From contig NC_017098.1 in the NCBI RefSeq assembly GCF_000242595.2, positions 1,240,001 to 1,304,000 of the forward strand: a DNA stretch of 64,000 nucleotides, written 5' to 3'. Under the pieces are notes generated by a model. The model saw nothing but the letters and a program-made list of their open reading frames with translations. It did not search any database and was not told where the DNA came from. The DNA is from Spirochaeta africana DSM 8902. Lineage in GTDB: Bacteria > Spirochaetota > Spirochaetia > DSM-27196 > DSM-8902. Shown here in pieces: positions 1,045-59,137 of the stretch. The first letter of the stretch is position 1. Each line of letters begins with the position of its first letter. The translations under genes were made by a program, and so were the position numbers.

Positions 1045-1830
1045 ATGCGCAATATTCTGCTGGATATACAGTACGATGGCACCGATTTCTGCGGCTGGCA
1101 GATTCAGGTCGGGCAGCGCACCGTGCAGGGCGAGCTGGAGAAGGCCCTGGAACGGCTGCACCGTCACCCGGTAAGCCTGCTGACCGCCGGCCGGACCGAT
1201 TCCGGGGTCCATGCGGCCGGACAGGCCGGGAACTTTCGCAGCGATATGGACTCGATCCCGCCGCAAAAGTTTGCCTCGGCCTTGAACAGCATGCTGCCGC
1301 GGGATGTGCGCATCCGCGGCAGCCGCGAGGTGCATGCTGATTTCCACGCGACGCATTCAGCGCTGGAACGCCGCTACCGCTATGCGATGTACTGCGCCCG
1401 GTTTGCCGATCCCTTGCTGGACAGATACCGGCTGCGCCTGCCGGGTATGCCTTCGCTGTCGCGACTGAATCAGATGGCATCACTACTGGTGGGGACCCAT
1501 GACTTTGCCAGCGTGGCATCGCCCAAAGAGGATCAGACGACGGTGCGTACCATCACCAGTGCGGCCTTTTATCCGGACCAGAGCGGTCTGCTGTTCGAGA
1601 TAGCCGGCAACGGCTTTCTCTGGAAGATGGTTCGCACCATCGTGGGCACGGTCCTGTTGCTTGCAGAGCAGCCCGATGCAGCCGTAATGTTTCAGCGGAT
1701 TCTGGCGGCGCGGGACAGAGGGGCGGCCGGTAAGACCGCTGCACCCCACGGGCTGTCGTTGTATCAGGTCAGGTATCCCGCCGAGCTGCTGGTACCGGCC
1801 GGAACCCGGACACTGGAGGGAACACCATGA
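1045..1830 (+). CDS. truA: tRNA pseudouridine(38-40) synthase TruA
   Basis: TruA isomerises uridines 38-40 in the anticodon stem of many tRNAs to pseudouridine. The 261-residue length is normal for the family. The N-terminal strand DIQYDGTDFCGWQ and the catalytic motif AGRTDSGVHA (nucleophile Asp52) are both present, as is the later FLWKMVRTIVG segment (about 192-202) of the second half-domain. Its last four bases (ATGA) overlap the start of the uracil-DNA glycosylase gene, so translation of the two is probably coupled. Identification is firm. Confidence 0.96.
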   Translation: MRNILLDIQYDGTDFCGWQIQVGQRTVQGELEKALERLHRHPVSLLTAGRTDSGVHAAGQAGNFRSDMDSIPPQKFASALNSMLPRDVRIRGSREVHADFHATHSALERRYRYAMYCARFADPLLDRYRLRLPGMPSLSRLNQMASLLVGTHDFASVASPKEDQTTVRTITSAAFYPDQSGLLFEIAGNGFLWKMVRTIVGTVLLLAEQPDAAVMFQRILAARDRGAAGKTAAPHGLSLYQVRYPAELLVPAGTRTLEGTP

Positions 1831-2723
1831 CCGAGGCTGTATGGGAGCTGTTGAACGATCTGGAAGATTATATGAAAACCGGATTCCGCTCGGAACATCC
1901 GGCGGCCCCGACCCTGGCCGATGTGCAGGCGGCCGTCCGCCAGCTGCAGCAAACCGGCAGTCCGGGCCGACCAGGCCGATCGGCAGCCAGGACGGATAAC
2001 GGTGCCGCCACTCCCGCCGGCCCCGCTGCTGCCGGACAGGCCGGCGCATCCGCGGGCAGGGCCCGTCACGCTGCCGGTTCTGCACCGGAACAGCGGCCTG
2101 TCGGGCGATCCGATCTGCCCGGTGGGAACGCAGCCGGCCCGGGCGGGCTGCTGGAGGCGGTAGCCACCGAGGTTGCCTCCTGTACTGCCTGTGCCCTGCA
2201 TGCCGAGCGCAACCGGACCGTGCCGGGTATCGGCTCGCCGGAACCCCTGGTCTGTGTGATCGGCGAGGGCCCCGGTGCCGACGAGGACCGGATGGGGCTG
2301 CCGTTCGTCGGTCCCAGTGGACAGTATCTGGACAAATGGCTCAAGGCGATCGGGCTGTCGCGTCATCGCAACGTTTTTATCACCAACGTGGTGAAATGTC
2401 GCCCTCCGGCCAACCGCAACCCTGCAGCCGAGGAGACAGCTGCCTGTGACGGCTACCTGCAGCGCCAGCTCGATGCGCTGCAGCCGCCGATGCTGCTGGT
2501 GCTGGGGCAGGTGGCGGCGCACAGCCTGCTGAACACCGACACACCCCTGGCAGATTTGCGCGGACAGCTGCACCGGATCAAGGGTATCCCGGCGGTGGTC
2601 ACCTGGCATCCCAGTGCAGTCCTGCGGAACCAGGATCTGCGCAGCGAGGTCTGGCGTGACCTGCAGTACATGCGCGATGAACTGATGCAGCTGCGCAGCG
2701 ACTACCGCCCGGAGATCCGCTAA
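1827..2723 (+). CDS. Type-4 (Fe-S) uracil-DNA glycosylase
   Basis: Removes uracil from DNA as the first step of base-excision repair. Family-4 features are visible: motif 1 GEGPGADED (146-154), the C-terminal motif HPSAVLR (261-267), and four cysteines, Cys119, Cys122, Cys191 and Cys207, spaced as the 4Fe-4S ligands. Residues 1-40 form a short helical head, and 41-108 are a low-complexity Gly/Ala/Pro/Arg linker that makes the protein longer (298 residues) than typical family members of about 200. A similar head plus linker occurs in some bacterial homologues. The start overlaps the truA stop by four bases, and priA begins two bases after its stop. Confidence 0.92.
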   Translation: MTEAVWELLNDLEDYMKTGFRSEHPAAPTLADVQAAVRQLQQTGSPGRPGRSAARTDNGAATPAGPAAAGQAGASAGRARHAAGSAPEQRPVGRSDLPGGNAAGPGGLLEAVATEVASCTACALHAERNRTVPGIGSPEPLVCVIGEGPGADEDRMGLPFVGPSGQYLDKWLKAIGLSRHRNVFITNVVKCRPPANRNPAAEETAACDGYLQRQLDALQPPMLLVLGQVAAHSLLNTDTPLADLRGQLHRIKGIPAVVTWHPSAVLRNQDLRSEVWRDLQYMRDELMQLRSDYRPEIR

Positions 2724-2725
2724 GC

Positions 2726-4684
2726 ATGGCCGGCTTTGTCGAGGTCGCCTTCTCCCTGCCGCTGGAACGTACCTTTACCTACAGCTGCGATACCACCCCG
2801 CAACCCGGCTGCCGGGTTATTGCGCCGTTCGGCGGACGTTCGCTGCACGGGGTGGCGGTAGCGACTCACCACGACGCCCCGCAGGGCTATCAGGTAAAGC
2901 CCCTGGAACGGGTTCTGGATGAAGAGCCGCTGCTGACCCCCCAGCTGCTGGAACTGGGGCGCTGGATGGCCGGGATGTACTTTGCTTCCTGGGGCGAGTG
3001 CCTGGGAACCATGATCCCGAATGCCAAGGAAGAGCGGCGGGTGCCGTCACTGGGCGGCGGGGATCCCGAGCCGAATCCGGTACCGATTACCCCGTCGGCC
3101 GCACAGGCCTCTGCTATCCGCTGTATTACCGAGGGCAGTTCCGGCGGGACCGCCGGGCGCTACTTCCTGTACGGAGTAACTGGCAGCGGCAAGACCGAGG
3201 TGTTCCTGCAGTCGGCCGAGCACATCCTGGCGCAGGGCAGAGGGATCATCTATCTGGTTCCCGAGATTGCCCTGACCCATCAGGTGGCTGAGATGCTTAA
3301 AAGCCGGTTTGGCGATACTGCTGCAATCCTCCACTCGCGTATGACCCCGTCGCAGCGGCTGGGGGAGTGGCGGCGCATTCGCCGCGGCGAGGCCCGCATG
3401 GTGATTGGCGCCCGCAGTGCGGTGTTTGCCCCGGTGCAGCACCTTGGCCTGATCATCCTTGACGAGGAGCACGAAGGAGCCTACAAGGCCGGCGATCGCC
3501 CGCGCTATCATGCCCGCCAGATTGCCATGAAACGCTGCTCCAGTGAACAGGCAACCCTGATCATGGGCAGCGCCACCCCGTCGGTTGAGGCCAAGCACCT
3601 TATGGATACCGGCGGGCTGCAGGCCTTGCATCTGCCGGAACGGATCTCCGGCGGGGGCATGCCGGCCCTGGAAATCGTGGATATGCGGCGCGAGAAGGAA
3701 TCCCTGTCGCAGCAGCTGCGTACCGAGATACAGGAAACCCTGCAGTCGGGGCGTCAGGTGATACTGTTCCTGAATCGCCGCGGTTTTTCCCATTTCTTTC
3801 ATTGCCGCAGCTGCGGCTACGAGATGCACTGCCCGCACTGCTCGGTCGGGCTGACCCTGCACAAGCATCGTGGCCGGATGGTGTGCCACTACTGCGGTTA
3901 CACCACCCGCCCGATCGACGTCTGCCCCGCGTGTAAATCACTGGATGTCGGCTACTCCGGGTTTGGCACCGAACACATCGAGGACGAGGTGCGAAGACAT
4001 TTTCCCCAGGCCAGTATTGATCGACTGGATACCGACAGTGCCGGTCGCAAGGGGGTGGTGGAGCGCATTCTGGGGGATTTTCGCAGCGGCAAGACCGATA
4101 TCCTGCTGGGTACCCAGATGGTAGCCAAGGGGCTGAACTTTCCCGGTCTGCATCTGGTCGGGATTGTGCTGGCAGATACCGGGCTGCACATGCCCGACTT
4201 CCGGGCTGCCGAGCGTACCTTTACCCTGATTACCCAGGTTGCCGGGCGTGCCGGGCGGTATCACCCGGACGGCCGGGTGCTTATCCAGACCTACCAGCCG
4301 GACAACCCGGTAATCCGGCAGGCTGCTGCCGGGGATGTGGAAGGTTTTTACCGTACCGAGATCGATGTACGACGGATGACCGGGTTTCCGCCATTCTCCC
4401 GGATGATTCGCCTGGTGGTACGTGGCAAACAGGAACAGAGCGTGCGGAACGCCGCCGACGAGCTCAGTGCCCGCCTGCACAGCGGCGGCCGCTTTCCCGG
4501 TGAGTGCATGGGGCCGAGTGAATGCCCGCTGGGCAAGATTGCCGGCAACTACCGGATGCAGATACTATTGCGCAGTCGCAGCGGCGGCGATATTCATACC
4601 CGGCTGAGCCAGGTCTTGCCCGGGTTCAAGCTGCCGCGCGGGCTGCATCTCGAGATTGATGTCGACCCGATTCAGCTGCTGTAG
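2726..4684 (+). CDS. priA: Primosomal protein N' (PriA helicase)
   Basis: Restarts stalled replication forks by recognising fork DNA and loading the replicative helicase. Visible elements are Walker A GVTGSGKT (150-157), the DEEH box (246-249), the zinc-binding region with four CxxC pairs (CRSC, CPHC, CHYC, CPAC at about 361-405), and the late helicase motifs GTQMVAKG and QVAGRAGR. At 652 residues it is shorter than the Escherichia coli protein (about 730), mainly in the N-terminal fork-binding region, which still starts with the usual VEVAFSLPLERTFTY. It lies two bases after the glycosylase gene and 11 bases before mutM, forming a replication/repair cluster. Confidence 0.96.
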   Translation: MAGFVEVAFSLPLERTFTYSCDTTPQPGCRVIAPFGGRSLHGVAVATHHDAPQGYQVKPLERVLDEEPLLTPQLLELGRWMAGMYFASWGECLGTMIPNAKEERRVPSLGGGDPEPNPVPITPSAAQASAIRCITEGSSGGTAGRYFLYGVTGSGKTEVFLQSAEHILAQGRGIIYLVPEIALTHQVAEMLKSRFGDTAAILHSRMTPSQRLGEWRRIRRGEARMVIGARSAVFAPVQHLGLIILDEEHEGAYKAGDRPRYHARQIAMKRCSSEQATLIMGSATPSVEAKHLMDTGGLQALHLPERISGGGMPALEIVDMRREKESLSQQLRTEIQETLQSGRQVILFLNRRGFSHFFHCRSCGYEMHCPHCSVGLTLHKHRGRMVCHYCGYTTRPIDVCPACKSLDVGYSGFGTEHIEDEVRRHFPQASIDRLDTDSAGRKGVVERILGDFRSGKTDILLGTQMVAKGLNFPGLHLVGIVLADTGLHMPDFRAAERTFTLITQVAGRAGRYHPDGRVLIQTYQPDNPVIRQAAAGDVEGFYRTEIDVRRMTGFPPFSRMIRLVVRGKQEQSVRNAADELSARLHSGGRFPGECMGPSECPLGKIAGNYRMQILLRSRSGGDIHTRLSQVLPGFKLPRGLHLEIDVDPIQLL

Positions 4685-4695
4685 ATGGAGATCCT

Positions 4696-5523
4696 ATGCC
4701 GGAGATGCCCGAGGTTCATACCACTATCCAGTCACTGCTGCAGGCCGGTCTGGCCGGGCGGCGCATCATCGGTGCCGAGGTTGAATGGCCGCGTACCGTC
4801 GGCGGGGATCCGCAGGGATTTGCCGGGGCCGTCCGCGGGCGACGCATAGACGGCCTGCAGCGTCGGGGCAAGTATATCCTGCTCTCGCTGGCGGAACCGG
4901 CTGGCTGGCTGGTGGTGCATCTGCGCATGAGCGGCCGCCTGCTGCTGACCTCCGACGACTCCGGACCCTACATCCGCGCCCGGCTGCAGCTGGATGACCG
5001 CCGCTGGCTCTGCCTCTATGCCCCGCGCCGCTTTGCACGCATGGAGTATCGCGACACCCTGGTGGAGCTGCTGCAGCGCCTGGGCCCCGAGCCGCTGGAA
5101 CCGGGGTTTACCCCCGATGTGCTGGCCGGGATCCTGGCCGGCACCCGGCGCGCACTGAAAACCGTGCTGCTGGACCAGCAGCGGATTGCCGGTATCGGCA
5201 ACATCTACGCCGACGAGGCCCTGTTCGAGGCCGGGCTGCACCCGCAGCGCCCGGCTGCATCCCTGCAGCCGCCAGAGATCGCCAGGCTCCATGCCGCTAT
5301 CCAGTCGGTTCTGCATCGGGGGATTCGCAACCTCGGTACCAGCCTGGGGCATGGCAAGGCAAATTTTTCCCTGCCGGATGGTGAGTCCGGCCGCAACCAG
5401 GAGGATATCCGGGTATTCCGGCGTACCGGGCTCCCCTGCCTGAACTGCGGTACCCCGATAGAACGGATGATAATCGGACAGCGCAGCACCCATTACTGCC
5501 CGGCCTGTCAGCAGTACTTGTGA
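4696..5523 (+). CDS. mutM: Formamidopyrimidine-DNA glycosylase (Fpg/MutM)
   Basis: Bifunctional glycosylase/AP lyase that excises 8-oxoguanine and formamidopyrimidines. After Met removal the protein starts PEMPEV, supplying the catalytic Pro and Glu. Lys59 (RRGKY) fits the conserved beta-hairpin lysine, GIGNIYADEALF is the H2TH region, and the C-terminal zinc finger has Cys248, Cys251, Cys268 and Cys271 with GQRSTHYCPAC. Length 275 residues is normal. Fpg is preferred over Nei because of the GIGNIYADE and GQRSTHYC motifs. A GGAGAT ribosome site precedes the ATG. Confidence 0.95.
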   Translation: MPEMPEVHTTIQSLLQAGLAGRRIIGAEVEWPRTVGGDPQGFAGAVRGRRIDGLQRRGKYILLSLAEPAGWLVVHLRMSGRLLLTSDDSGPYIRARLQLDDRRWLCLYAPRRFARMEYRDTLVELLQRLGPEPLEPGFTPDVLAGILAGTRRALKTVLLDQQRIAGIGNIYADEALFEAGLHPQRPAASLQPPEIARLHAAIQSVLHRGIRNLGTSLGHGKANFSLPDGESGRNQEDIRVFRRTGLPCLNCGTPIERMIIGQRSTHYCPACQQYL

Positions 5524-5553: not shown

Positions 5554-6864
5554 ATGTCGATCGCTGAATTTTTTGCACCAGAGCGTGTGGTGATGCTGAA
5601 GCGCAGTACCAAGCAGGGCGCCGTGAACGAGCTGGTGCGGGCACTGTGTGCCTCGGTACCGGAGCTGGATCGCGCAGCGGTAACTACCGCCATATGGGAT
5701 CGCGAACAGCTGTTCTCCACCAGGATCGCCCCTATGATCGCGGTGCCGCATGCCCAGCTCCCGGATCTGGAGGGGAGTTATATTGCGGTCGGTAAAAGCC
5801 GTCGCGGAATCGAGTACGACGCCCGGGATGAGCAGCGGGTGCATCTGGTGTTCCTGCTGATCGGCTCCGAGGATAATCATCTGAAGGTCCTCAGCGAGCT
5901 CGCCCGTCTGCTGCAGCGGCAAGGTCTGGTGCAGCGGCTTTTGACCGCCGCCGGCCGACGCGAGATGTACCAGCTGCTGACCGAGCCGGCGCCGCGCGAA
6001 GCCGGCACCGGGGAGTCCCGTACCGCCACGGTGGTGGGGGAGTATGCCGGTCAGCTGGCCGAGCGTGTCGAGGCCCGAGTGGTAATGGTGCATGGTGAGA
6101 GTGCTAACGTCGGGTTGCTGGCCAATCTGCGGCGTCAGGGCCGCAGTGTAGTTCTGGTTGGAACCGAGGACCAGGGGGATCAAATCGACGAGAGTCTCTA
6201 TGATCATCACCTGCTGGTACCCTTTAAAGGGCTGGATCGCTCCAACCAGGTCGAGATCACCATGCTGATGGCGCTGTCCAAGGGGCTGATCCACAAGGGC
6301 GACAAGGTAGTGAATGTATTCGGGCTTACCGGCAGCCAGCTGGACACCATTGTGCTCAGTGATGTGGCGCGGGACTTCAAGCTCTTCTTCTCGATGCCGC
6401 TGCAGGGACAGCAGGACGGGCTTGATCAACAGGTATTCATGCGCGCCATGCAGATCATGGCCGAGCTGGCCCAGGAGGGGCGCGAGGGCAAGGCGGTTGG
6501 CACCCTGATTGTACTGGGGGATTACGAGCACGTAAAAACCCACTGCCAGCAGATGGTAATCAACCCCTTCCAGGGCTACGACGAGAGCGAACGCAATATC
6601 CTGGACCCCAGCCTGACCGAAACCATCAAGGAGTTTTCCCGTATCGACGGAGCCTTTGTAATTCGCGGGGACGGGGTCATCATGTCGGCTGGCACCTATC
6701 TGCGTATAAACCATGCGGTAACCGGGCTGACACCCGGGCTGGGAGCCCGCCACACCGCCGCAGCCGGGATCACCATGGACTGCGAGGCCCTGTCGATCTG
6801 TCTCTCGGAATCAACCCGCCAGATCAGCCTGTTCCGCTCGGGCGAGCGGATTATGGTGGTGTAG
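5554..6864 (+). CDS. Diadenylate cyclase with N-terminal PTS EIIA-type domain
   Basis: Predicted to make cyclic di-AMP from two ATP. Three parts can be seen. Residues 1-150 resemble a fructose/mannitol-type PTS EIIA domain, with His66 in IAVPHAQLP at the position of the phosphorylated histidine. Residues about 165-300 form an alpha/beta segment (VFGLTGSQLDTIVLSD) that may be the pyruvate-kinase-C-like domain found next to some DAC domains. Residues about 318-436 are a DisA_N/DAC domain with DGA at 365-367 and GARHTAA at 397-403 (RHT rather than the more common RHR). No transmembrane segment is present, so it is probably cytosolic. The ribosome site is weak. It is convergent with the YhaN-like gene. 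Confidence 0.85.
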   Translation: MSIAEFFAPERVVMLKRSTKQGAVNELVRALCASVPELDRAAVTTAIWDREQLFSTRIAPMIAVPHAQLPDLEGSYIAVGKSRRGIEYDARDEQRVHLVFLLIGSEDNHLKVLSELARLLQRQGLVQRLLTAAGRREMYQLLTEPAPREAGTGESRTATVVGEYAGQLAERVEARVVMVHGESANVGLLANLRRQGRSVVLVGTEDQGDQIDESLYDHHLLVPFKGLDRSNQVEITMLMALSKGLIHKGDKVVNVFGLTGSQLDTIVLSDVARDFKLFFSMPLQGQQDGLDQQVFMRAMQIMAELAQEGREGKAVGTLIVLGDYEHVKTHCQQMVINPFQGYDESERNILDPSLTETIKEFSRIDGAFVIRGDGVIMSAGTYLRINHAVTGLTPGLGARHTAAAGITMDCEALSICLSESTRQISLFRSGERIMVV

Positions 6865-23527: not shown

Positions 23528-23710
23528 CGCATGGGCCAAAGGGGCCGGCAGCCCGGTCTCCGGGGCCGCGCTCCTGGTACGCCAGCGCGCCGCAGCCAGC
23601 CCGGTGTCCGGGGCCGCCCCCTGGTACGCCAGCGCGCCGCAGCCAGCCCGGTGTCCGGGGCCGCCTCCCTGGTACGCCAGCGCGCCGCAGCCAGCCCGGT
23701 CTCCGGTGCA
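23528..23710 (+). repeat. 48-bp tandem repeats with one 47-bp copy
   Basis: TGGTACGCCAGCGCGCCGCA recurs at 23575, 23622 and 23670, each followed by the same GCCAGCCCGGT(G/C)TCCGG core. Spacings are 47 and 48 bases. A 48-bp unit keeps frame (LVRQRAAASPVSGAAS). The copy ending in the five-C run 23617-23621 has lost one base and shifts the permease frame. Confidence 0.8.
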
Positions 23711-24679
23711 TTGTCGCGATCCCTGGTGCTGCTCAAGGGCACTGTCTGCCTGCAGCTGTGGGTCGCCGCTGCGCTGCTGGTGCTCCCGGGGCTCTTCGGC
23801 GATGCTGTCTCCAGCAATGGCACAGGCAGACTCAATCCTGGTGCTGGCTGGTGGTTGTATATGGCCGGGATTACAATCCAGCTGCATTCCCTCCGGATCC
23901 GGCTGCCGCGGCCGGTTTGGCTGCTGACCGCCATGGCGATAGCCGCAACCCTGTATCTTGGTGAGTCCGGATCACTGGCGCTGGTGCAGGAGTTCACCGT
24001 CCGTTCCGATCGCTTCCTCCAGGAATCCCTGACCCATCTCCAGCTGGCCTTCGGTTCGGCCTGTGCCGCTGCGTTGGTGGGAATTCCGCTGGGGATCCTT
24101 GCCTATCGCTCGGATACTGCCGGTCGGGTAGTGTTCTCGCTTGTCAGCGGGGTCCAGACGGTACCAAGCCTGGCGTTGTTCGGTTTGATGATCGCCCCGC
24201 TGGCGCTGCTGTCGCGCAGTGTTCCGGCGCTGCGGGCGGTAGGGCTGCAGGGTATCGGCTTTGCGCCGGCATTCCTGGCGCTCCTGCTGTATTCACTGCT
24301 GCCGATTGTGCGTAATACCTATACCAGTCTGGCGGCGCTGCCGCAGGACGTACTGCGGGCAGGACAGGGTATGGGTATGACCCGCGTGCAGCTGTTCCGT
24401 TATGTTGAACTTCCGCTGGCGCTGCCGATTGTGCTGGCTGGCGTGCGAACCGCTGCGGTACAGGCGGTTGGCAACACCACAATCGCCGCCCTGATCGGTG
24501 CCGGCGGACTGGGCAGCTTTGTGTTCCAGGGACTGGGGCAGGGGGCAGATGACCTGATTGTTCTGGGGGTGCTGCCGATTGTGGGATTGGCGGTATGCAC
24601 CGATCGTGGACTGGATGCGCTGGTGCGACGCCTGGATTACCGCACCGTTATTCGAAATCGAACCCTGGAGGCCGCATGA
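23531..24679 (+). CDS. Osmoprotectant ABC transporter permease (YehY-like), distal frame
   Basis: The distal frame carries the whole transport domain. After the repeat linker come hydrophobic helices from about residue 70 of this frame (LWVAAALLVLPGLFG, WWLYMAGITIQL), then a binding-protein-dependent permease domain with SACAAALVGIPLGILAY and the EAA-like loop QGMGMTRVQLFRYVELPLALP, ending GAGGLGSFVFQGLGQGADDLI. YehY-type permeases carry extra N-terminal helices like those in the upstream frame. An internal ATG at 23531 could allow a truncated product, but with a Pro/Arg-rich head. Its stop overlaps the ATPase start by four bases. Confidence 0.75.
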   Translation: MGQRGRQPGLRGRAPGTPARRSQPGVRGRPLVRQRAAASPVSGAASLVRQRAAASPVSGALSRSLVLLKGTVCLQLWVAAALLVLPGLFGDAVSSNGTGRLNPGAGWWLYMAGITIQLHSLRIRLPRPVWLLTAMAIAATLYLGESGSLALVQEFTVRSDRFLQESLTHLQLAFGSACAAALVGIPLGILAYRSDTAGRVVFSLVSGVQTVPSLALFGLMIAPLALLSRSVPALRAVGLQGIGFAPAFLALLLYSLLPIVRNTYTSLAALPQDVLRAGQGMGMTRVQLFRYVELPLALPIVLAGVRTAAVQAVGNTTIAALIGAGGLGSFVFQGLGQGADDLIVLGVLPIVGLAVCTDRGLDALVRRLDYRTVIRNRTLEAA

Positions 24680-25749
24680 TTGAGCTCAGGAATGTTTCCA
24701 AGCGGTATGGCAGTGTGACCGCCCTGGACGGGGTGTCATTGGTGGTGCCGGAGGGGTCGGTCTGTGTGTGTATCGGACCATCGGGCTGCGGCAAATCGAC
24801 CACCCTGAAACTGGTCAATCGCCTGCTGGAGCCGTCTGACGGCGAGGTGCTGGTGAATGGTCAGTCGGTGCGCAGTCGCTCTGCTGTTCAGCTGCGCCGC
24901 GAAATCGGGTATGTAATCCAGAGTGTCGGTCTGTTTCCGCACATGACGGTGGCAGAGAACATCGGGATTGTACCCAGACTTTTCGGGCGTGATGCTGCCT
25001 GGCGGCGTACCCGCGCCGAGGAGCTGCTGCAGCTCATCGGTCTGGATCCGGGGCGCTATATGCAGGCCTATCCGGCCCAGCTCTCCGGAGGCGAGGCCCA
25101 GCGAATCGGGGTGGCACGGGCACTGGCTGCCAATCAGCCGATTCTGCTGATGGATGAACCATTCGGTGCGGTCGACCCCCTGAATCGGGAGGTTCTGCAG
25201 GCCGAGTTCCTGGATCTGCAGCGCAAGCTTCGCAAGACCATTCTGTTTGTAACCCACGACCTGGATGAGGCCATCCGTATGGGTGACATGATTGCCATCA
25301 TGAACCAGGGGCAGGTGGTGCAACACGATACCCCCGAACGTATTCTGGCTCAGCCAGCCTCCCGCTTTGTCGCGGATTTTGTCGGGGTGGATCGGGCTAT
25401 CAAGCGCCTGGTGAGGTTCTCGGTACGGGATTACCTGCGCCCGCTGCCAGCTGCTCCTTCGGCTGGTGCAGCTGCGGCTGGAGCCGCGGCGGTCAATGGC
25501 AGGCCAGAGACCGGAACAGGTGCGGCCGCGTACGGGACAGGAGCCGCAGTGGCTGGCACCGCGGCGACTGGATCCGCGGCGGCCGCCAGCCGCGACCTGC
25601 TGACCGGCTACCACACCCTGCGCGATGCCTTGTCTCGTCTGCTGTCGGCCGATCTGGCGCACCTTCCGGTGTACAGTCTTGAGGGGCAGCAGATCGGCAC
25701 GGTTCACCTGAGCGATATCCGCAGAATCACCCAGGAGGTGGCACGATGA
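24676..25749 (+). CDS. Osmoprotectant ABC transporter ATPase with CBS remnant
   Basis: 357 residues from the ATG that overlaps the permease stop (ATGA). Walker A GPSGCGKST (34-42), signature LSGGEAQR (136-143), Walker B LLMDEP (157-162) and His194 are intact, and the YGSVTALDGVSL start is typical of the glycine-betaine group (OpuBA/YehX). A low-complexity Ala/Gly linker (about 255-305) separates the ATPase from a short C-terminal piece, HLPVYSLEGQQIGTVHLSDI, that looks like half a CBS domain; CBS domains regulate such transporters by ionic strength or nucleotides. It energises the two permeases. Confidence 0.92.
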   Translation: MIELRNVSKRYGSVTALDGVSLVVPEGSVCVCIGPSGCGKSTTLKLVNRLLEPSDGEVLVNGQSVRSRSAVQLRREIGYVIQSVGLFPHMTVAENIGIVPRLFGRDAAWRRTRAEELLQLIGLDPGRYMQAYPAQLSGGEAQRIGVARALAANQPILLMDEPFGAVDPLNREVLQAEFLDLQRKLRKTILFVTHDLDEAIRMGDMIAIMNQGQVVQHDTPERILAQPASRFVADFVGVDRAIKRLVRFSVRDYLRPLPAAPSAGAAAAGAAAVNGRPETGTGAAAYGTGAAVAGTAATGSAAAASRDLLTGYHTLRDALSRLLSADLAHLPVYSLEGQQIGTVHLSDIRRITQEVAR

Positions 25750-41184: not shown

Positions 41185-43674
41185 ATGAAACTGCCGTTTT
41201 CGGACCCCGTGCTGATCTTTGCCACGGTCATGATGCTTATCCTCCTGGCCCCGCTGGTGGCGCGACGTATCCGTTTGCCGGAAATCGTCGGGCTGCTGCT
41301 GGCCGGTATGCTGTTCGGTCCCTTCGGGCTGGGGCTGCTGGAGCGGGATGCCACCATACAGCTGCTGGGTCAGGTCGGGCTGCTGTACATCATGTTTCTG
41401 GCCGGTCTCGAGATTGATCTGCATCAGGTCAAGCAGCAGCGATCGCACAGCCTGGTATTCGGTCTGCTCACCTTTTCGATACCGCTGGCGCTGGGTACCT
41501 GGCTGGGGATCTGGTCGCTTGGTATGGCTATCCCGACTGCGGTGCTTATGTCCACGATGTTCAGCTCTCACACCCTGCTGACATTTCCGGCGGTCGGTAA
41601 ACTGGGTCTTACCAAGACCCGGGCGGTTACCACCACCATCGGCGGAACGATTATAACCGATACCCTGGCGCTGCTGGTTCTGGCGGTCATCGCGGCCTCG
41701 ACCGAAGGCGAGCTGGATACCCGGTTCTGGGTAAGCATCGGGATTTCCATGACCCTGTATGTAGTCGGGGTAGTCCTGCTGGTCCCGATCATCGGGCGCT
41801 GGTTCCTGCAGCGATTTTCTTCCGACGAGAATATCGAGTTCGCCTCGGTTCTGGCCATTACCTTTCTGGCCGGCTACCTGGCGCATGTGGCCGGACTGGA
41901 GCCGATCATCGGTGCCTTTCTGGCCGGGCTTACCCTGAACTCGCTGATCCCGGAAAAAAGCGGCCTGATGGCCAAGATTCATTTTACCGGAAACGCCCTG
42001 TTCATCCCGTTCTTCCTGCTGTCGGTTGGTATGCTGGTAAATCTCGAGCTGCTGCTGGAAGGGCCGTCCACCTGGGTGGTGATCGCGGTAATGGTGGGGG
42101 TGGCGATTGTGTCGAAACTGGCTGCTGCCTATGCATCCGGGGGACTGCTGCGCTACAGCTTGCAGGAAAGCGGGCTGATATACGGGCTGAGCGTAAACCA
42201 GGCAGCAGCTACCCTGGCAGCAGCCCTGGTGGGCTACGAGATCGGGCTGTTCGATGACAGCATTATAACCGGTACTATTGTGATGATTGGCGTAACCTGT
42301 TTTTTCGGCCCGATCGTGACCGAGCATTTTGGTAGACGGCTCGCCGAGCAGCGGGAACAGCAATCACTGACCGAATCTGATGGTGCCCCTCACCGGGTAC
42401 TGCTGGCGGTGGATCGGCGAGAGCAGGCCAAAGAGCTGCTGGAACTGGGTTTTTTCCTGCGCTCCGGCAATTCGCATGAACCCCTGTACCCGGTCCACGT
42501 AGTACCGGAGGGCAGCGACACCGAGGAACGGGTTGCCCGTGGCGAGAAGCTGCTGGCGCACACCGTGGTGCGCGCCCTGGCTGCCAATGTACCGGTGAGC
42601 CCCTCCACCTCGGTGGATGTTAACGTTACCTCCGGCATACTCAGGGCTGCCCGGGAGAATCGTGCTTCAATAATCGCCCTGTACTGGGATGGCCAGCCTG
42701 CCGGGCGGGGCAGGGTGTTCGGGCGCAGTATCGACACCGTGATTGAGCGCGGCAAACAGATGGTGGTGGTCAACCGGATTGTTTCTCCGTTGAATATCTG
42801 CAAGCGCATCATCCTGGTGATACCCCCGCTGGCGGAGCGTCAGGCAGGTTTTTCCCAGGCAATCCAGACCGTAAAAACTCTTGCCAACCAGAGTGGTACC
42901 CGCCTGCAGCTGATGATCGAGCCGGGCATGACCCAGCCGGTACGAAAATTCATCGAGAGTGTACAGCCAGCGGTTGCGGTGAGTCTGGTCGAGTATCGCG
43001 CTGCCCGGGACATTCTGTATGAACTGCCGGCTCTGGTGGCTACTACCGACTGGATTATCCTGCTGGCGGCACGCATGGGGAGAATCTCGTGGCAGCCGCG
43101 GATCGATCGCCTGCCGCATCAGCTCAGTCAGCAGTTCCCGACTAACAACCTGACCTGTATCTATCCACCCGAGGAGCAGCTTGCCTACCGCCAGGCATTT
43201 GAAAAACGCCTGGACCGAGGGTTTTTCCAGCAGGTCTTTCCCCAGGAGCATGTGGTGCTGAACAGCAGCGCCGGCAGTATCCATCAGCTGCTGGAAAAGC
43301 TGCTTGCCGGCGAGTTTCCCAGAAAACAGCTCAAGCCCATGCTGGCACGCTTGCAGAGGATCAGTGAGACCGAACCGGTAGAGCTGATCAGCGATGTAGT
43401 GCTCCTGCATGACCACATTGCCGGGATTGATGAACCACGTATCTTCCTGGGGGTCTGCCGCAAACCCCTGCAGCTGCCACTGGTGCGCACCGCACCGCAT
43501 GTGGTGGTGGTACTGCTTGCCCCGCATGACCAGGATCCGGCGCGCCATCTGGCCACCCTGGCCGACATTGCCCGCATCATCCGTACCCCGGGAATGGCCG
43601 CCAGTTTGCGAGACACCGGCAGCTATACTAAACTGGTACAGAGGGTGACGGATGAACACAACCGACAGGAATGA
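41185..43674 (+). CDS. CPA2-family cation:proton antiporter with Usp-like tail
   Basis: 829 residues. The first ~390 form the CPA2 antiporter domain with about 12-13 helices (RRIRLPEIVGLLLAGMLFGP; GLLYIMFLAGLEIDL; IGGTIITDTLALLVLA; HVAGLEPIIGAFLAGL). The remaining cytosolic half appears to be universal-stress-protein-like modules (HRVLLAVDRREQAKEL and ICKRIILVIPPL starts) and may bind nucleotide to gate transport. Predicted to exchange Na+ or K+ for H+, which fits a salt- or alkali-exposed lifestyle. Overlaps the hydrolase gene by 23 bases. Confidence 0.88.
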   Translation: MKLPFSDPVLIFATVMMLILLAPLVARRIRLPEIVGLLLAGMLFGPFGLGLLERDATIQLLGQVGLLYIMFLAGLEIDLHQVKQQRSHSLVFGLLTFSIPLALGTWLGIWSLGMAIPTAVLMSTMFSSHTLLTFPAVGKLGLTKTRAVTTTIGGTIITDTLALLVLAVIAASTEGELDTRFWVSIGISMTLYVVGVVLLVPIIGRWFLQRFSSDENIEFASVLAITFLAGYLAHVAGLEPIIGAFLAGLTLNSLIPEKSGLMAKIHFTGNALFIPFFLLSVGMLVNLELLLEGPSTWVVIAVMVGVAIVSKLAAAYASGGLLRYSLQESGLIYGLSVNQAAATLAAALVGYEIGLFDDSIITGTIVMIGVTCFFGPIVTEHFGRRLAEQREQQSLTESDGAPHRVLLAVDRREQAKELLELGFFLRSGNSHEPLYPVHVVPEGSDTEERVARGEKLLAHTVVRALAANVPVSPSTSVDVNVTSGILRAARENRASIIALYWDGQPAGRGRVFGRSIDTVIERGKQMVVVNRIVSPLNICKRIILVIPPLAERQAGFSQAIQTVKTLANQSGTRLQLMIEPGMTQPVRKFIESVQPAVAVSLVEYRAARDILYELPALVATTDWIILLAARMGRISWQPRIDRLPHQLSQQFPTNNLTCIYPPEEQLAYRQAFEKRLDRGFFQQVFPQEHVVLNSSAGSIHQLLEKLLAGEFPRKQLKPMLARLQRISETEPVELISDVVLLHDHIAGIDEPRIFLGVCRKPLQLPLVRTAPHVVVVLLAPHDQDPARHLATLADIARIIRTPGMAASLRDTGSYTKLVQRVTDEHNRQE

Positions 43675-49710: not shown

Positions 49711-50163
49711 CTAAACCTCGACAATCTCGAGCATATAACGTACCTCTTCATGCTGCGAAAAAAGCGTGTAAAAATCCGGCTGCCATTCAAAGGTACGATA
49801 ATGATTCGGATTCTCATCAGCAAATTCTTGAGCTTCAGCAACCAGATTATTGAATTCCGATAATGGTCGCACATGTTCGATGGCAGCAATAGTGTCCGCT
49901 TCATGTTCTGCTTCCGGTCTTATGTCCAGGCAAATTGCGACTTGAAGAGAATCAGAAAGCAGAACATACTTACCAAATCCGTTTGTCCAGGTATCGATTA
50001 TTCTTTTAGTTCCAGTCACCGTTGATTCAAAAACCTCTGCTGGAATTGGTTCCTGGTGGTCGCCTTCAAACCTGCTATCGAAAACGAAAATCTGGCTGTC
50101 CTTATAGTGGGCGGTATCGATATGTTCGAAATGTGCAGCCAAGTCTGCAAGAGCTGTGGTCAT
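49711..50163 (-). CDS. Unknown 150-residue protein, copy 1
   Basis: Acidic soluble protein from ATG 50163 (GTG two codons earlier is the alternative). Segments: AHYKDSQIFVFDSRFEGDHQ, KYVLLSDSLQVAICLDIRPE, HYRTFEWQPDFYTLFSQHEE. No signal peptide and no recognised family. It is divergent from the BspA-like lipoprotein gene with a 187-base shared control region, and the pair is conserved as a unit in the duplication (copy at 56011, identical protein). Confidence 0.65.
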   Translation of the reverse strand: MTTALADLAAHFEHIDTAHYKDSQIFVFDSRFEGDHQEPIPAEVFESTVTGTKRIIDTWTNGFGKYVLLSDSLQVAICLDIRPEAEHEADTIAAIEHVRPLSEFNNLVAEAQEFADENPNHYRTFEWQPDFYTLFSQHEEVRYMLEIVEV

Positions 50164-50232
50164 AGACACAGTATAACACGAGGCCGAATTAGAAATAGCA
50201 TAATGCTGGATAAAAGTAATTAAACTTGAGAT

Positions 50233-51543: not shown

Positions 51544-52746
51544 GTGAAAAAGAATTTTTCAATTATTGGGGTTGGTGTAGTGGTGGCTCTGCTCTTAGTA
51601 TCAGGTTGTGGTGGCATAATTGATTTAGAAATTGATGGCCTGGATCTTCCGTTTATCATGGAAGTGACAACAACTGAAGACAACCAGACGTTTGAATTAC
51701 GGAACCAGACTCAGCCGTTGACAGTAGACTGGGGCGACGGAACTGTTGAAGAAATCACAGGAATAAATGCAACACACGAATATGCTACAGCAGGAATTTA
51801 TAATATTGCTATCGACGCTGAAGAGTTGCATATTGATCAAAATAGTTCAGGAAATACACCACAGTTGATCACAGATGTAAAGCAATGGGGCACAGTGAAA
51901 TGGACTTCAATGGCAGGAATGTTTAGAAGAACGACAAATCTTACTGCTTTTTCAGCAACTGACACCCCTGATTTAAGTCAAGTTACAAATATGACCCGTA
52001 TGTTCTTCGACGCTTCAAACTTTAACGGAGACATCGGAAATTGGGATACTTCAAATGTTACGCATATGATTCAGATGTTCCAAAATGCTTCAAGTTTCAA
52101 CGGAGATATCGGAAACTGGGATACTTCAAATGTTACAAGTATGAGCTACATGTTCGCAGATGCTTCAAATTTAAACCAAGACATCGGTGGTTGGGATACT
52201 TCAAATGTTACGAATATCACCTATATGTTTTGGGGGGCCTCAAGTTTCAACCAAGACATCGGTGGTTGGGATGTTTCAAATGTTACGAATATGATCCGCA
52301 TTTTCGCAGGTGCTTCAAACTTTAACGGAGATATTGGAAACTGGGATACTTCAAATGTTACAAGTATGGGCAGTATGTTCGCAGATGCTTCAAACTTTAA
52401 CGGAGACATCGGAAACTGGGATACTTCAAATGTTACGCATATGCTCGGTATGTTCCAAGGTGCTTCAAGTTTCAACCAAAACATCGAAAGTTGGAACACC
52501 TCAAATGTTACAACTATGAGCTATATGTTCTACGGTGCTTCAAGTTTCGACCAAGATATTGGAAACTGGGATACTTCAAATGTTACGAGTATGATCAGTA
52601 TGTTCAGAAATGCTTCAAGTTTCAACCAAGACCTTTCCGGTTGGTGTGTAACAAACATTACAAGTAAGCCGGGTGATTTTGACCTCTTCTCAGGATTTGA
52701 AGGACAAGACGAATTACAACCGCAGTGGGGAACATGTCCAGACTAA
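51544..52746 (+). CDS. BspA/DUF285-repeat surface lipoprotein 2
   Basis: 400 residues, GTG start behind the same GGAGGATCGAG as gene 1; an ATG seven codons upstream is not preferred. The signal peptide and the first ~55 residues are identical to gene 1, then the PKD-like region diverges moderately. Nine 25-residue repeats follow with a different mix of [13 protein letters not shown] and NQDIGGWD units, so it is one unit longer than gene 1. Probably cotranscribed with gene 1; a terminator follows. Confidence 0.88.
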
Positions 52747-52880: not shown

Positions 52881-54252
52881 GGATAGTGTCCAAACGTGTT
52901 TGCAATTTCAGATAACGTATAATATCTTGCGCAATTTCAAGTTTCGATAAAAAGAAAGTCCTCAATCTGACGATTGATTAAGTACGACCCAAACCAAGTC
53001 AGAAGGAGGACCCCATGGGTAAGATTATCGAGATAAACGAGCAGGAAGTCAAAGACCATTTGGGTAATTTTGTCAGGGAGACGGTGGAGGAAACCTTGAA
53101 CGCTATGCTGGAGGCAGAAGCAGAACAGCTGTGTAATGCGCAAAAACATGAGCGCAGCTCTGAGCGAACGGGGTATCGTGCCGGACATTATGATAGGAAA
53201 CTGCTAACGAAAGCAGGCGAAGTGAATCTGCAGGTTCCCAAGCTGAAGAAGGTGACGTTTGAAACTGCCATTATTGAACGGTATAAGCGACGCGAGATCT
53301 CTGTTGAGGAGGCAATGGTAGAGATGTACTTGGCTGGCGTTTCTGTCAGACGTGTCGAGGATATCACCGAAGCCCTTTGGGGTGCCAAGGTCTCACCAGG
53401 AACTATCAGCAACCTCAATAAGAAAATCTACGAAGAAATTGAAAAATGGCGCAACCTGCCGTTGAAGCAGCGCTACACCTATGTCTACCTTGATGGCATC
53501 TGGATGAAACGATCCTGGGCTGGTGAAGTACGCAATGTATCCGTTCTGGTAGCCATAGGCGTTAATCAGGATGGTTTCAGGGAGATAATCGGGGTTGCCG
53601 AAGGCACCAAGGAAGACAAAGACAGCTGGCAGCGATTTCTCCGCTATTTGAAAGGCCGGGGACTGGAAACAGTGGAGATGTTTATCTCTGACAAGTCTCT
53701 GGGATTGGTAGAAGCGATACCAGAGTTTTTTCCTGATTCCCGGTGGCAGCGGTGCGTAGTGCATTTTTACCGCAATGTATTCAGCTTTGTTCCGCAGGGA
53801 AAAGTCAAAGCTGTTGCAACCATGTTGAAGGCCATTCATGCCCAGGAAAACCTGGAAGAGGCAGTCCGAAAGAAAGACCAGATTGCGAAGAAACTGATTG
53901 AAATGAAATTGTCCAAAGCAGCGGAGATCGTTCGAGAAGGTGCATTAGAAACCTTCTCGTATTATTATTTCCCGGTCGAACACTGGAAACGGATCAGGAC
54001 CAATAACGGGCTTGAAAGAATCATGCGAGAAATCAGAAGGAGGACACGTGTAATCGGTTCGTTCCCTGATGGTGAGTCAGCACTGATGCTGGTTGCAGCA
54101 CGACTGCGCCACATCTCGAACTCAACATGGAGTGAACGGAAATATCTGAATATGGATCTGATGATCGAGTACGATCACGATCATCAGGCATCATAACAGC
54201 AGGGTCACAGATTGATGGACGCTGAATTTGCGCAAGATATTTGACACTACCC
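52881..54252 (+). mobile_element. IS256-family insertion sequence, type A, copy 1
   Basis: Left end GGATAGTGTC and right end GACACTACCC form the outer part of imperfect inverted repeats (further matches TTGCAATTTCAG / TTGCGCAAATTCAG). It encloses one intact transposase. The right end abuts the damaged left end of the type B element. Repeated at 57766. Confidence 0.75.
53015..54196 (+). CDS. IS256-family transposase (type A), copy 1
   Basis: 393-residue Mutator-type transposase with DDE residues Asp160 (YLDGIWMK), Asp226 (ISDKSLG) and Glu334 (NNGLERIMREIRRRTRVIGSFP), plus Cys247-x2-His250. Start behind AAGGAGG. The copy at 57900 encodes an identical protein, showing the duplication is recent. 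Confidence 0.94.
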   Translation: MGKIIEINEQEVKDHLGNFVRETVEETLNAMLEAEAEQLCNAQKHERSSERTGYRAGHYDRKLLTKAGEVNLQVPKLKKVTFETAIIERYKRREISVEEAMVEMYLAGVSVRRVEDITEALWGAKVSPGTISNLNKKIYEEIEKWRNLPLKQRYTYVYLDGIWMKRSWAGEVRNVSVLVAIGVNQDGFREIIGVAEGTKEDKDSWQRFLRYLKGRGLETVEMFISDKSLGLVEAIPEFFPDSRWQRCVVHFYRNVFSFVPQGKVKAVATMLKAIHAQENLEEAVRKKDQIAKKLIEMKLSKAAEIVREGALETFSYYYFPVEHWKRIRTNNGLERIMREIRRRTRVIGSFPDGESALMLVAARLRHISNSTWSERKYLNMDLMIEYDHDHQAS

Positions 54253-56010: not shown

Positions 56011-56463
56011 CTAAACCTCGACAATCTCGAGCATATAACGTACCTCTTCATGCTGCGAAAAAAGCGTGTAAAAATCCGGCTGCCATTCAAAGGTACGATA
56101 ATGATTCGGATTCTCATCAGCAAATTCTTGAGCTTCAGCAACCAGATTATTGAATTCCGATAATGGTCGCACATGTTCGATGGCAGCAATAGTGTCCGCT
56201 TCATGTTCTGCTTCCGGTCTTATGTCCAGGCAAATTGCGACTTGAAGAGAATCAGAAAGCAGAACATACTTACCAAATCCGTTTGTCCAGGTATCGATTA
56301 TTCTTTTAGTTCCAGTCACCGTTGATTCAAAAACCTCTGCTGGAATTGGTTCCTGGTGGTCGCCTTCAAACCTGCTATCGAAAACGAAAATCTGGCTGTC
56401 CTTATAGTGGGCGGTATCGATATGTTCGAAATGTGCAGCCAAGTCTGCAAGAGCTGTGGTCAT
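56011..56463 (-). CDS. Unknown 150-residue protein, copy 2
   Basis: Encodes the same protein as the copy at 49711, again divergent from a BspA-like lipoprotein gene. Retention of both copies without change reflects recent duplication, so it says little about selection. Function unknown. Confidence 0.65.
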   Translation of the reverse strand: MTTALADLAAHFEHIDTAHYKDSQIFVFDSRFEGDHQEPIPAEVFESTVTGTKRIIDTWTNGFGKYVLLSDSLQVAICLDIRPEAEHEADTIAAIEHVRPLSEFNNLVAEAQEFADENPNHYRTFEWQPDFYTLFSQHEEVRYMLEIVEV

Positions 56464-56532
56464 AGACACAGTATAACACGAGGCCGAATTAGAAATAGCA
56501 TAATGCTGGATAAAAGTAATTAAACTTGAGAT

Positions 56533-56650: not shown

Positions 56651-57631
56651 GTGAAAAAGAATTTTTCAATTATTGGGGTTGGTGTAGTGGTGGCTCTGCT
56701 CTTAGTATCAGGTTGTGGTGGCATAATTGATTTAGAAATTGATGGCCTGGATCTTCCGTTTATCATGGAAGTCACAACAACTGAAGACAACCAGACGTTC
56801 GAACTACGAAACCAGACTCAACCGTTGACAGTAGACTGGGGTGATGGGACTGTTGAAGAAATTACTACTACAGATGCTACTCATGAATATGCTACAGAAG
56901 GAAGCTATGATATTACTATTGGTGCTGAAGAATTATGGATTAGTCAAAAAGCATTTTCAGCAAATACACCAGAACTAATTACAGATATAAAACAATGGGG
57001 AAATATACAATGGACTTCAATGGATAGTATGTTCCGAGGTGCAACAAATCTCACTTCATTTACTGCAAAAGATACTCCTGATTTATCCTCTGTTACGAAT
57101 ATGAGCAGGATGTTCAAATTTGCTTCAAATTTCAACCAAGACATCGGAGATTGGGATGTTGGTAATGTTACGAATATGAGCAGGATGTTCCGCGATGCTT
57201 CTAACTTCAACCAAGACATTAGTGGTTGGGATGTTTCAAATGTTACAACTATGAGCAGTATGTTCCAAAATGCTTCAAATTTCAACCAAGACATTGGAAA
57301 CTGGAATACTTCGAGTGTTACAAATATGAGCTTTATGTTCCTCGGTGCTTCAAGTTTCAACCAAGACATTGGAGGTTGGGATACCTCGGATGTTTCAGGT
57401 ATGGGCGGTATGTTCCAAAATGCTTCAAGTTTCAACCAAGACATTGGAGGTTGGGATACCTCAAGGGTTACAAATATGAGTGGTATGTTCCTCGGTGCTT
57501 CAAATTTCAACCAAGACCTTTCCGGTTGGTGCGTAACAAACATTACAAATAAGCCAAACGATTTCGACACTGACTCGGGTTTTGCCGGACAAGACGAATT
57601 ACAACCACAGTGGGGAACATGTCCAGACTAA
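56651..57631 (+). CDS. BspA/DUF285-repeat surface lipoprotein 3
   Basis: 326 residues, GTG start behind GGAGG. Signal peptide and the first ~55 residues equal those of genes 1 and 2. The upstream DNA and the early coding bases follow gene 1 (GTCACAACAACTG), while the 3' end and downstream DNA follow gene 2 (ending [14 protein letters not shown]), so the gene is a mosaic of the two. The PKD-like region ([13 protein letters not shown]) and the six-repeat array differ from both. Predicted surface lipoprotein like its paralogues. Confidence 0.88.
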
Positions 57632-57765: not shown

Positions 57766-59137
57766 GGATAGTGTCCAAACGTGTTTGCAATTTCAGATAA
57801 CGTATAATATCTTGCGCAATTTCAAGTTTCGATAAAAAGAAAGTCCTCAATCTGACGATTGATTAAGTACGACCCAAACCAAGTCAGAAGGAGGACCCCA
57901 TGGGTAAGATTATCGAGATAAACGAGCAGGAAGTCAAAGACCATTTGGGTAATTTTGTCAGGGAGACGGTGGAGGAAACCTTGAACGCTATGCTGGAGGC
58001 AGAAGCAGAACAGCTGTGTAATGCGCAAAAACATGAGCGCAGCTCTGAGCGAACGGGGTATCGTGCCGGACATTATGATAGGAAACTGCTAACGAAAGCA
58101 GGCGAAGTGAATCTGCAGGTTCCCAAGCTGAAGAAGGTGACGTTTGAAACTGCCATTATTGAACGGTATAAGCGACGCGAGATCTCTGTTGAGGAGGCAA
58201 TGGTAGAGATGTACTTGGCTGGCGTTTCTGTCAGACGTGTCGAGGATATCACCGAAGCCCTTTGGGGTGCCAAGGTCTCACCAGGAACTATCAGCAACCT
58301 CAATAAGAAAATCTACGAAGAAATTGAAAAATGGCGCAACCTGCCGTTGAAGCAGCGCTACACCTATGTCTACCTTGATGGCATCTGGATGAAACGATCC
58401 TGGGCTGGTGAAGTACGCAATGTATCCGTTCTGGTAGCCATAGGCGTTAATCAGGATGGTTTCAGGGAGATAATCGGGGTTGCCGAAGGCACCAAGGAAG
58501 ACAAAGACAGCTGGCAGCGATTTCTCCGCTATTTGAAAGGCCGGGGACTGGAAACAGTGGAGATGTTTATCTCTGACAAGTCTCTGGGATTGGTAGAAGC
58601 GATACCAGAGTTTTTTCCTGATTCCCGGTGGCAGCGGTGCGTAGTGCATTTTTACCGCAATGTATTCAGCTTTGTTCCGCAGGGAAAAGTCAAAGCTGTT
58701 GCAACCATGTTGAAGGCCATTCATGCCCAGGAAAACCTGGAAGAGGCAGTCCGAAAGAAAGACCAGATTGCGAAGAAACTGATTGAAATGAAATTGTCCA
58801 AAGCAGCGGAGATCGTTCGAGAAGGTGCATTAGAAACCTTCTCGTATTATTATTTCCCGGTCGAACACTGGAAACGGATCAGGACCAATAACGGGCTTGA
58901 AAGAATCATGCGAGAAATCAGAAGGAGGACACGTGTAATCGGTTCGTTCCCTGATGGTGAGTCAGCACTGATGCTGGTTGCAGCACGACTGCGCCACATC
59001 TCGAACTCAACATGGAGTGAACGGAAATATCTGAATATGGATCTGATGATCGAGTACGATCACGATCATCAGGCATCATAACAGCAGGGTCACAGATTGA
59101 TGGACGCTGAATTTGCGCAAGATATTTGACACTACCC
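57766..59137 (+). mobile_element. IS256-family insertion sequence, type A, copy 2
   Basis: Same ends as copy 1 (GGATAGTGTC ... GACACTACCC) and the same position next to the damaged type B element; duplicated as part of unit 2. Confidence 0.75.
57900..59081 (+). CDS. IS256-family transposase (type A), copy 2
   Basis: Protein identical over all 393 residues to the copy at 53015, with all catalytic residues. Either copy could mobilise related ends. Confidence 0.94.
   Translation: MGKIIEINEQEVKDHLGNFVRETVEETLNAMLEAEAEQLCNAQKHERSSERTGYRAGHYDRKLLTKAGEVNLQVPKLKKVTFETAIIERYKRREISVEEAMVEMYLAGVSVRRVEDITEALWGAKVSPGTISNLNKKIYEEIEKWRNLPLKQRYTYVYLDGIWMKRSWAGEVRNVSVLVAIGVNQDGFREIIGVAEGTKEDKDSWQRFLRYLKGRGLETVEMFISDKSLGLVEAIPEFFPDSRWQRCVVHFYRNVFSFVPQGKVKAVATMLKAIHAQENLEEAVRKKDQIAKKLIEMKLSKAAEIVREGALETFSYYYFPVEHWKRIRTNNGLERIMREIRRRTRVIGSFPDGESALMLVAARLRHISNSTWSERKYLNMDLMIEYDHDHQAS

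Follow-up and report, generated by a model that had tools for sequence, protein, structure and literature searches.

Organisation of the EIIA-DacZ gene and its product

The window analysed here is a stretch of 64,000 nucleotides from the genome of Spirochaeta africana DSM 8902 (NC_017098.1, positions 1,240,001 to 1,304,000). The gene under study, referred to as EIIA-DacZ, starts 30 bp downstream of the mutM stop at 5523, and its features are collected in Table 1. Pfam placed PTS_EIIA_2 (PF00359) at residues 6-143 (E 3e-25, 89 bits against a cut-off of 27) and DAC (PF02457) at residues 306-431 (E 5e-21, 75 bits against a cut-off of 27). Since both matches exceed their cut-offs within one ORF, the fusion of a c-di-AMP synthase to a PTS domain, as claimed in a preliminary description of the locus, is confirmed. 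That description named two domains, both correctly, but overlooked a third one between them, which resembles the C-terminal domain of pyruvate kinase (PK_C).

Table 1. Positions of the EIIA-DacZ gene, its domains and motifs, and a related gene of the window
Feature	Position	Strand	Basis or remark
EIIA-DacZ gene	5554..6864	+	one ORF, ATG start, 436 aa plus stop
PTS EIIA type-2 (PtsN-like) domain, residues 1-146	5554..5991	+	Pfam, structure comparison
Pyruvate-kinase-C-like (DacZ N-terminal) domain, residues about 152-277	6007..6384	+	VIA Z; DacZ_P in relatives
DAC catalytic domain, residues 289-436	6418..6861	+	Pfam 75 bits; VIA
Codon of His66 (CAT), predicted phospho-acceptor	5749..5751	+	conservation
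DGA motif, D365-G366-A367	6646..6654	+	alignment
GARHT (GxRH) motif, residues 397-401	6742..6756	+	alignment
CPA2-type antiporter, Usp and degenerate C-terminal EIIA-like domain	41185..43674	+	related context, outside EIIA-DacZ gene

Structure comparison of the three segments agreed with this division. The EIIA segment (residues 1-146) matched E. coli IIA-Ntr (1a6j_A) with a VIA Z of 21.8 over 145 residues at 1.9 A, the middle segment (residues 152-277) matched pyruvate kinase (5wrp_C) with a Z of 14.0 over 122 residues at 2.9 A, and the DAC segment (residues 289-436) matched CdaA and DisA structures with Z values of 14-16. The Pfam matches of the middle domain to DacZ_P, DacZ_T and PK_C were all sub-threshold in EIIA-DacZ itself; DacZ_P was found at E <= 0.01 in 16 of 25 relatives. 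The PK_C fold and these DacZ_P matches together identify the C-terminal part as a DacZ rather than a bare DAC domain, and in Pfam the middle domain is already described as a probable sensor domain of DacZ. An AlphaFold2 model computed from 25 aligned natural relatives had a mean pLDDT of 81.6 but a pTM of 0.51, indicating that the single domains are well modelled and that their mutual placement is unsure. A chance fusion is excluded, as dozens of genomes encode the identical domain order within one ORF, with 35-50% identity.

The cyclase is of the DacZ class

As judged by sequence, the EIIA-DacZ protein is a DacZ-class diadenylate cyclase. Like DacZ/CdaZ of Haloferax volcanii and Methanocaldococcus (NF041371, PF21755/PF21756/PF19294 plus PF02457), it carries a PK_C-like domain followed by DAC as well as the GxRH, DGA and SES motifs, and the NCBIfam DacZ model covers residues 167-434 (E 5e-36). 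It differs from these enzymes in its additional N-terminal EIIA, and its identity to the two haloarchaeal DacZ that we aligned is only 29%. The score for the haloarchaeal equivalog NF041371 (124 bits, cut-off 430) likewise describes a protein of the same class and not a haloarchaeal orthologue. With the membrane-bound CdaA-CdaR cyclase it shares the common catalytic domain family, whereas it has other N-terminal domains, SES instead of SEE and no membrane helices. Assignment to CdaA is contradicted by the TIGR00159 score (32 bits, cut-off 188.8) and by the N-terminus, which is an EIIA. A standard-type CdaA (TIGR00159, 210 bits) is encoded about 7 kb upstream, and a second ORF after the CdaA gene lies at the position expected for cdaR; EIIA-DacZ is thus the second of the genome's two DACs.

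The GTLI, DGA, GxRH and SES motifs of the DAC domain are intact in EIIA-DacZ, and DGA and GxRH (G397-A-R399-H400) are invariant among its relatives. An alignment of EIIA-DacZ with two of its relatives, the CdaA of the same organism, two haloarchaeal DacZ and a spirochaete DacZ without EIIA had ten invariant columns (G309, G316, D365, G366, A367, G397, R399, H400, A403 and S418). The CdaA motifs RHR and SEE, of which the Glu of SEE binds Mg, correspond to RHT and SES in EIIA-DacZ, and the final Arg of RHR is replaced by Thr or Ala in EIIA-DacZ and its relatives. We considered whether these replacements denote an inactive enzyme and rejected this, since the two haloarchaeal DacZ, both of which pass the NCBIfam DacZ cut-off, also have SES and carry His where CdaA has its second Arg. 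Because the motifs match those of haloarchaeal DacZ and the H. volcanii enzyme makes c-di-AMP with Mn2+ (PMC6741144), DAC activity of EIIA-DacZ is very likely.

Distribution of the fusion

The order and length of EIIA-PK_C-DAC are conserved in Spirochaetota, Kiritimatiellota/Planctomycetota (PVC) and Fibrobacterota. Full-length relatives were present in many Spirochaetales genomes and, among the best 80 of 301 encoded relatives, in genomes labelled Kiritimatiellae/PVC, Planctomycetota, Chitinispirillia and Fibrobacterota. Across 296 Spirochaetota genomes there were only 8 matches at E <= 1e-40, 3 of which were EIIA-less DacZ, so the fusion is patchy within this phylum. The survey of spirochaete architectures that had been called for therefore shows that the three-domain protein does recur in Spirochaetota, patchily, and also in other phyla. 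The existence of EIIA-less DacZ in Spirochaetota indicates that DacZ can function without EIIA. We rejected the idea that these are split versions of the fusion, as no EIIA is encoded adjacent to them. Longer EIIA-DacZ forms of 513 and 610 aa occur at L042 (3730-5268) and L028 (reverse strand, 1501-3330), respectively, the extra length of the latter being a Pro/Ala-rich stretch that separates EIIA from the DacZ part.

No conserved neighbour gene was found across the Spirochaetota EIIA-DacZ loci, nor was an operon partner or a c-di-AMP receptor found linked to the EIIA-DacZ gene. Only at the Fibrobacterota loci (L098-L116 and allied ones) are the neighbours conserved, an acyltransferase-like gene on the upstream side and a glucose-6-phosphate-isomerase-like gene on the downstream side, both named by eye. 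The EIIA-DAC fusion was not described in the literature searched; Galperin in 2023 reportedly surveyed the domain architectures of DAC proteins, and that survey, which lay outside our search, may list it. As DacZ and EIIA are each known and a catalogue of DAC domains is already published, the novelty of the fusion as such is limited.

Conservation of the EIIA active site

The candidate phospho-His of the preliminary description, His66, stands up well, as it lies within IAVPHA, the canonical phospho-His motif of EIIA. In an alignment of relatives, R50, E51, S55, A63, P65, H66 and G85 were invariant in 25 of 25. We then took 78 proteins from named genomes, 18 of which form one well-supported Fibrobacterota clade. 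In all 60 proteins outside this clade R50, E51, A63, P65, H66 and G85 were invariant, and the second active-site His (position 109) was present in 49 of the 60. EIIA as a whole averaged 32% pairwise identity outside the clade, and invariance of six residues in a domain of such low overall identity indicates strong constraint on the phosphoryl site. Compared by domain, mean pairwise identity was 28% for PK_C, 31% for EIIA and 58% for DAC.

The Fibrobacterota clade presents another picture. Position 66 is Gln in 11 sequences, Tyr in 1 (loci L098, L100, L101, L103, L104, L105, L107, L109, L110, L112, L114 and L116) and His in 6, which requires four changes on the tree; R50, E51, A63 and G85 are still invariant, and position 109 is mostly Gln. 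The codons for His and for Gln or Tyr are one base apart, which argues for relaxed constraint at position 66 in this clade. A missing phosphate donor does not account for the loss, because EI is encoded in 29 of the 30 relatives' genomes tested, most of them from the Fibrobacterota group. That EIIA is kept with Gln or Tyr at position 66 in genomes encoding EI indicates that phosphorylation is dispensable for its retention in this clade. On the simplest reading of these sequences, Spirochaetota and PVC bacteria would use phosphorylation, whereas some of the Fibrobacterota would have abandoned it. Two EIIA-DacZ paralogues are encoded in some Chitinispirillia genomes, and in one genome position 66 is His in one of them and Gln in the other.

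PTS donors and sister EIIA domains in the genome

EIIA domains normally receive phosphate from a sugar or nitrogen PTS relay. The genome, searched as one contig of 3,285,855 bases, encodes three EI (a canonical one, a PtsP-type GAF-EI and one in an EIIA-HPr-EI fusion), three HPr domains, one of them within that fusion, and a single EIIC, which adjoins the EIIA-HPr-EI gene. EI is present in 277 of the 296 Spirochaetota genomes; we dropped its co-occurrence as a test of phosphorylation, as this frequency and the 29 of 30 among the relatives' genomes do not discriminate.

The genome encodes nine EIIA domains. Two of these, both intact, are C-terminal on Na_H_Exchanger antiporters (L136 and L137), and a degenerate one is borne by the antiporter of the window, where it scored 26.2 bits (cut-off 27) and LLHDHI replaces xxPHxx. 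The others are those of the EIIA-HPr-EI fusion and EIIA-DacZ, two stand-alone PtsN-like proteins and two other small proteins of 217 and 172 aa. In BLAST searches within the genome, the EIIA of DacZ scored 67 bits with the 217-aa protein, 62 with an antiporter EIIA and 58 with a PtsN-like protein, and it was most distant from the EIIA of the EIIA-HPr-EI fusion (34 bits). Being nearest to the PtsN-like and antiporter EIIA domains and furthest from that of the fusion, the domain probably serves ion homeostasis rather than sugar transport. The preliminary description had left the input open between a sugar and a nitrogen PTS; the relay parts, the single EIIC placed beside the EIIA-HPr-EI gene and the antiporter-borne EIIA domains make sugar transport the less likely input and favour a PTS-Ntr-like phosphorelay.

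Membership in PtsN itself is not indicated by the equivalog scores (54 bits against a cut-off of 138.7 for TIGR01419 and 53 against 221 for NF008145), so that only the PtsN-like fold can be assigned. The domain resembles PtsN (EIIA-Ntr) in fold and in the phospho-His motif. PtsN acts on K+ transport through phosphorylation-dependent direct contact, whereas the spirochaete EIIA is fused to its presumed target, which produces a second messenger rather than moving ions. The EIIA-fused cation/proton antiporters also carry an EIIA inside an ion-homeostasis protein; theirs, however, is C-terminal, the effector is the transporter itself, and the copy in the window is degenerate.

Candidate targets, hydrolases and other features of the window

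c-di-AMP is a signal molecule for salt and potassium, and the osmoprotectant importer and the CPA2 antiporter of the window had been put forward as its targets. Their candidacy is weak: the osmoprotectant ATPase (24595-25746) gave no match to a CBS domain, and the antiporter gave none to TrkA_C and has a Usp domain. Three TrkA_C matches occur elsewhere in the genome. No c-di-AMP riboswitch was found in the window, where the sole Rfam match is a tRNA. A PgpH phosphodiesterase was not found in the genome; two short DHH proteins, with open frames of 335 and 321 aa, are candidate hydrolases of c-di-AMP/pApA. The 335-aa one (L145; genome C1:1304945-1305370) lies about 0.9 kb beyond the right edge of the window.

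Several repeats were also noted. A 48-base tandem repeat of 3.3 copies (23549-23706) lies in the 5' part of the gene for the osmoprotectant permease or close to it, and 75-base tandem repeats occupy 51982-52632 and 57091-57517, one frame of which, by eye, apparently encodes BspA/DUF285-like repeats. Two IS-like pairs of ORFs of equal length with identical starts (49711-50169 and 56011-56469; 53015-54196 and 57900-59081) suggest a recent duplication or insertion in that part of the window.

Proposed control of c-di-AMP synthesis

The reading towards which we lean, with modest confidence, is that a PTS-Ntr-like relay gates this DacZ by way of the EIIA domain that it carries. The protein would be a soluble DacZ-class cyclase, and the phosphorylation state of its PtsN-like EIIA would determine how much c-di-AMP it makes. 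Phosphate would pass from PEP to EI, or to the GAF-containing EI of the PtsP type, then to HPr and on to His66, whose role as the acceptor is predicted from what is known of the family. More speculatively, the charge on His66 could alter the packing of EIIA against the PK_C-like domain or the DAC dimer and thereby how fast c-di-AMP is formed from two ATP; the messenger could in turn act on potassium and osmolyte transport, alongside the sister EIIA domains inside cation/proton antiporters. For an EIIA whose phosphorylation gates ion homeostasis by direct contact, E. coli offers a precedent: there PtsN in its unphosphorylated form binds TrkA and KdpD as well as the K+/H+ antiporter YcgO (PMC13104625), and its contact with YcgO is weakened by phosphorylation (PMC11808508).

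The Fibrobacterota clade bears on the main rival explanation, in which EIIA is a docking or oligomerisation module that works independently of phosphorylation. It would bring DacZ to a partner such as a transporter, HPr or another EIIA target, or shape the DAC dimer, and His66 would be retained on other grounds, for instance to bind HPr without signalling. In favour of such a module are the Gln or Tyr found in this clade at position 66 and the Gln that prevails at 109, together with invariant R50, E51, A63 and G85 and an EI in nearly all of these genomes; against this, His66 is found in 60 of 60 proteins of the remaining lineages, distant phyla included, and His109 in 49 of 60, and we regard the explanation as rather unlikely. 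It is more improbable still that the main control comes from a ligand of the PK_C-like domain, in the way fructose-1,6-bisphosphate acts on pyruvate kinase, and that EIIA has a minor or inherited role. The PK_C fold, which is kept in EIIA-less DacZ, and the regulatory role proposed for this domain in Haloferax DacZ (PMC6741144) speak for ligand control, but PK_C is the least conserved of the three domains (28%), no invariant pocket residues were seen in the alignment of relatives, and EIIA is kept across phyla.

Least probable, in our estimate, is a working sugar-PTS EIIA that donates phosphate to an EIIB and couples c-di-AMP synthesis to the transport of one sugar. The score for TIGR00848 (FruA-type IIA) is slightly over those for the PtsN models and one EIIC does exist in the genome; that EIIC, however, adjoins its own EIIA-HPr-EI gene, no EIIB or EIIC was found near the EIIA-DacZ gene, and in comparisons of this domain within the genome PtsN-like and antiporter-borne EIIA domains outscored the EIIA of the fusion (58-67 against 34 bits).

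Potassium control is known separately for EIIA-Ntr in Proteobacteria and for c-di-AMP in Gram-positives. Whether in spirochaetes, PVC bacteria and Fibrobacterota a PTS-Ntr-like relay gates c-di-AMP within one polypeptide and so joins both systems, the Gln66 clade representing a fixed gate, is in our judgement evenly balanced. How c-di-AMP synthases are controlled is a poorly answered question, to which gating by a built-in EIIA would contribute both a signal, the flux of phosphate driven by PEP, and a residue, and the natural His-to-Gln clade offers ready comparisons without mutagenesis. If gating by EIIA is true, the literatures on PtsN-type regulation (PMC13104625) and on c-di-AMP in potassium homeostasis would be joined. 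With EIIA also present on cation antiporters in the same genome, one phosphorelay may govern much of the ion balance in a halophile-type spirochaete.
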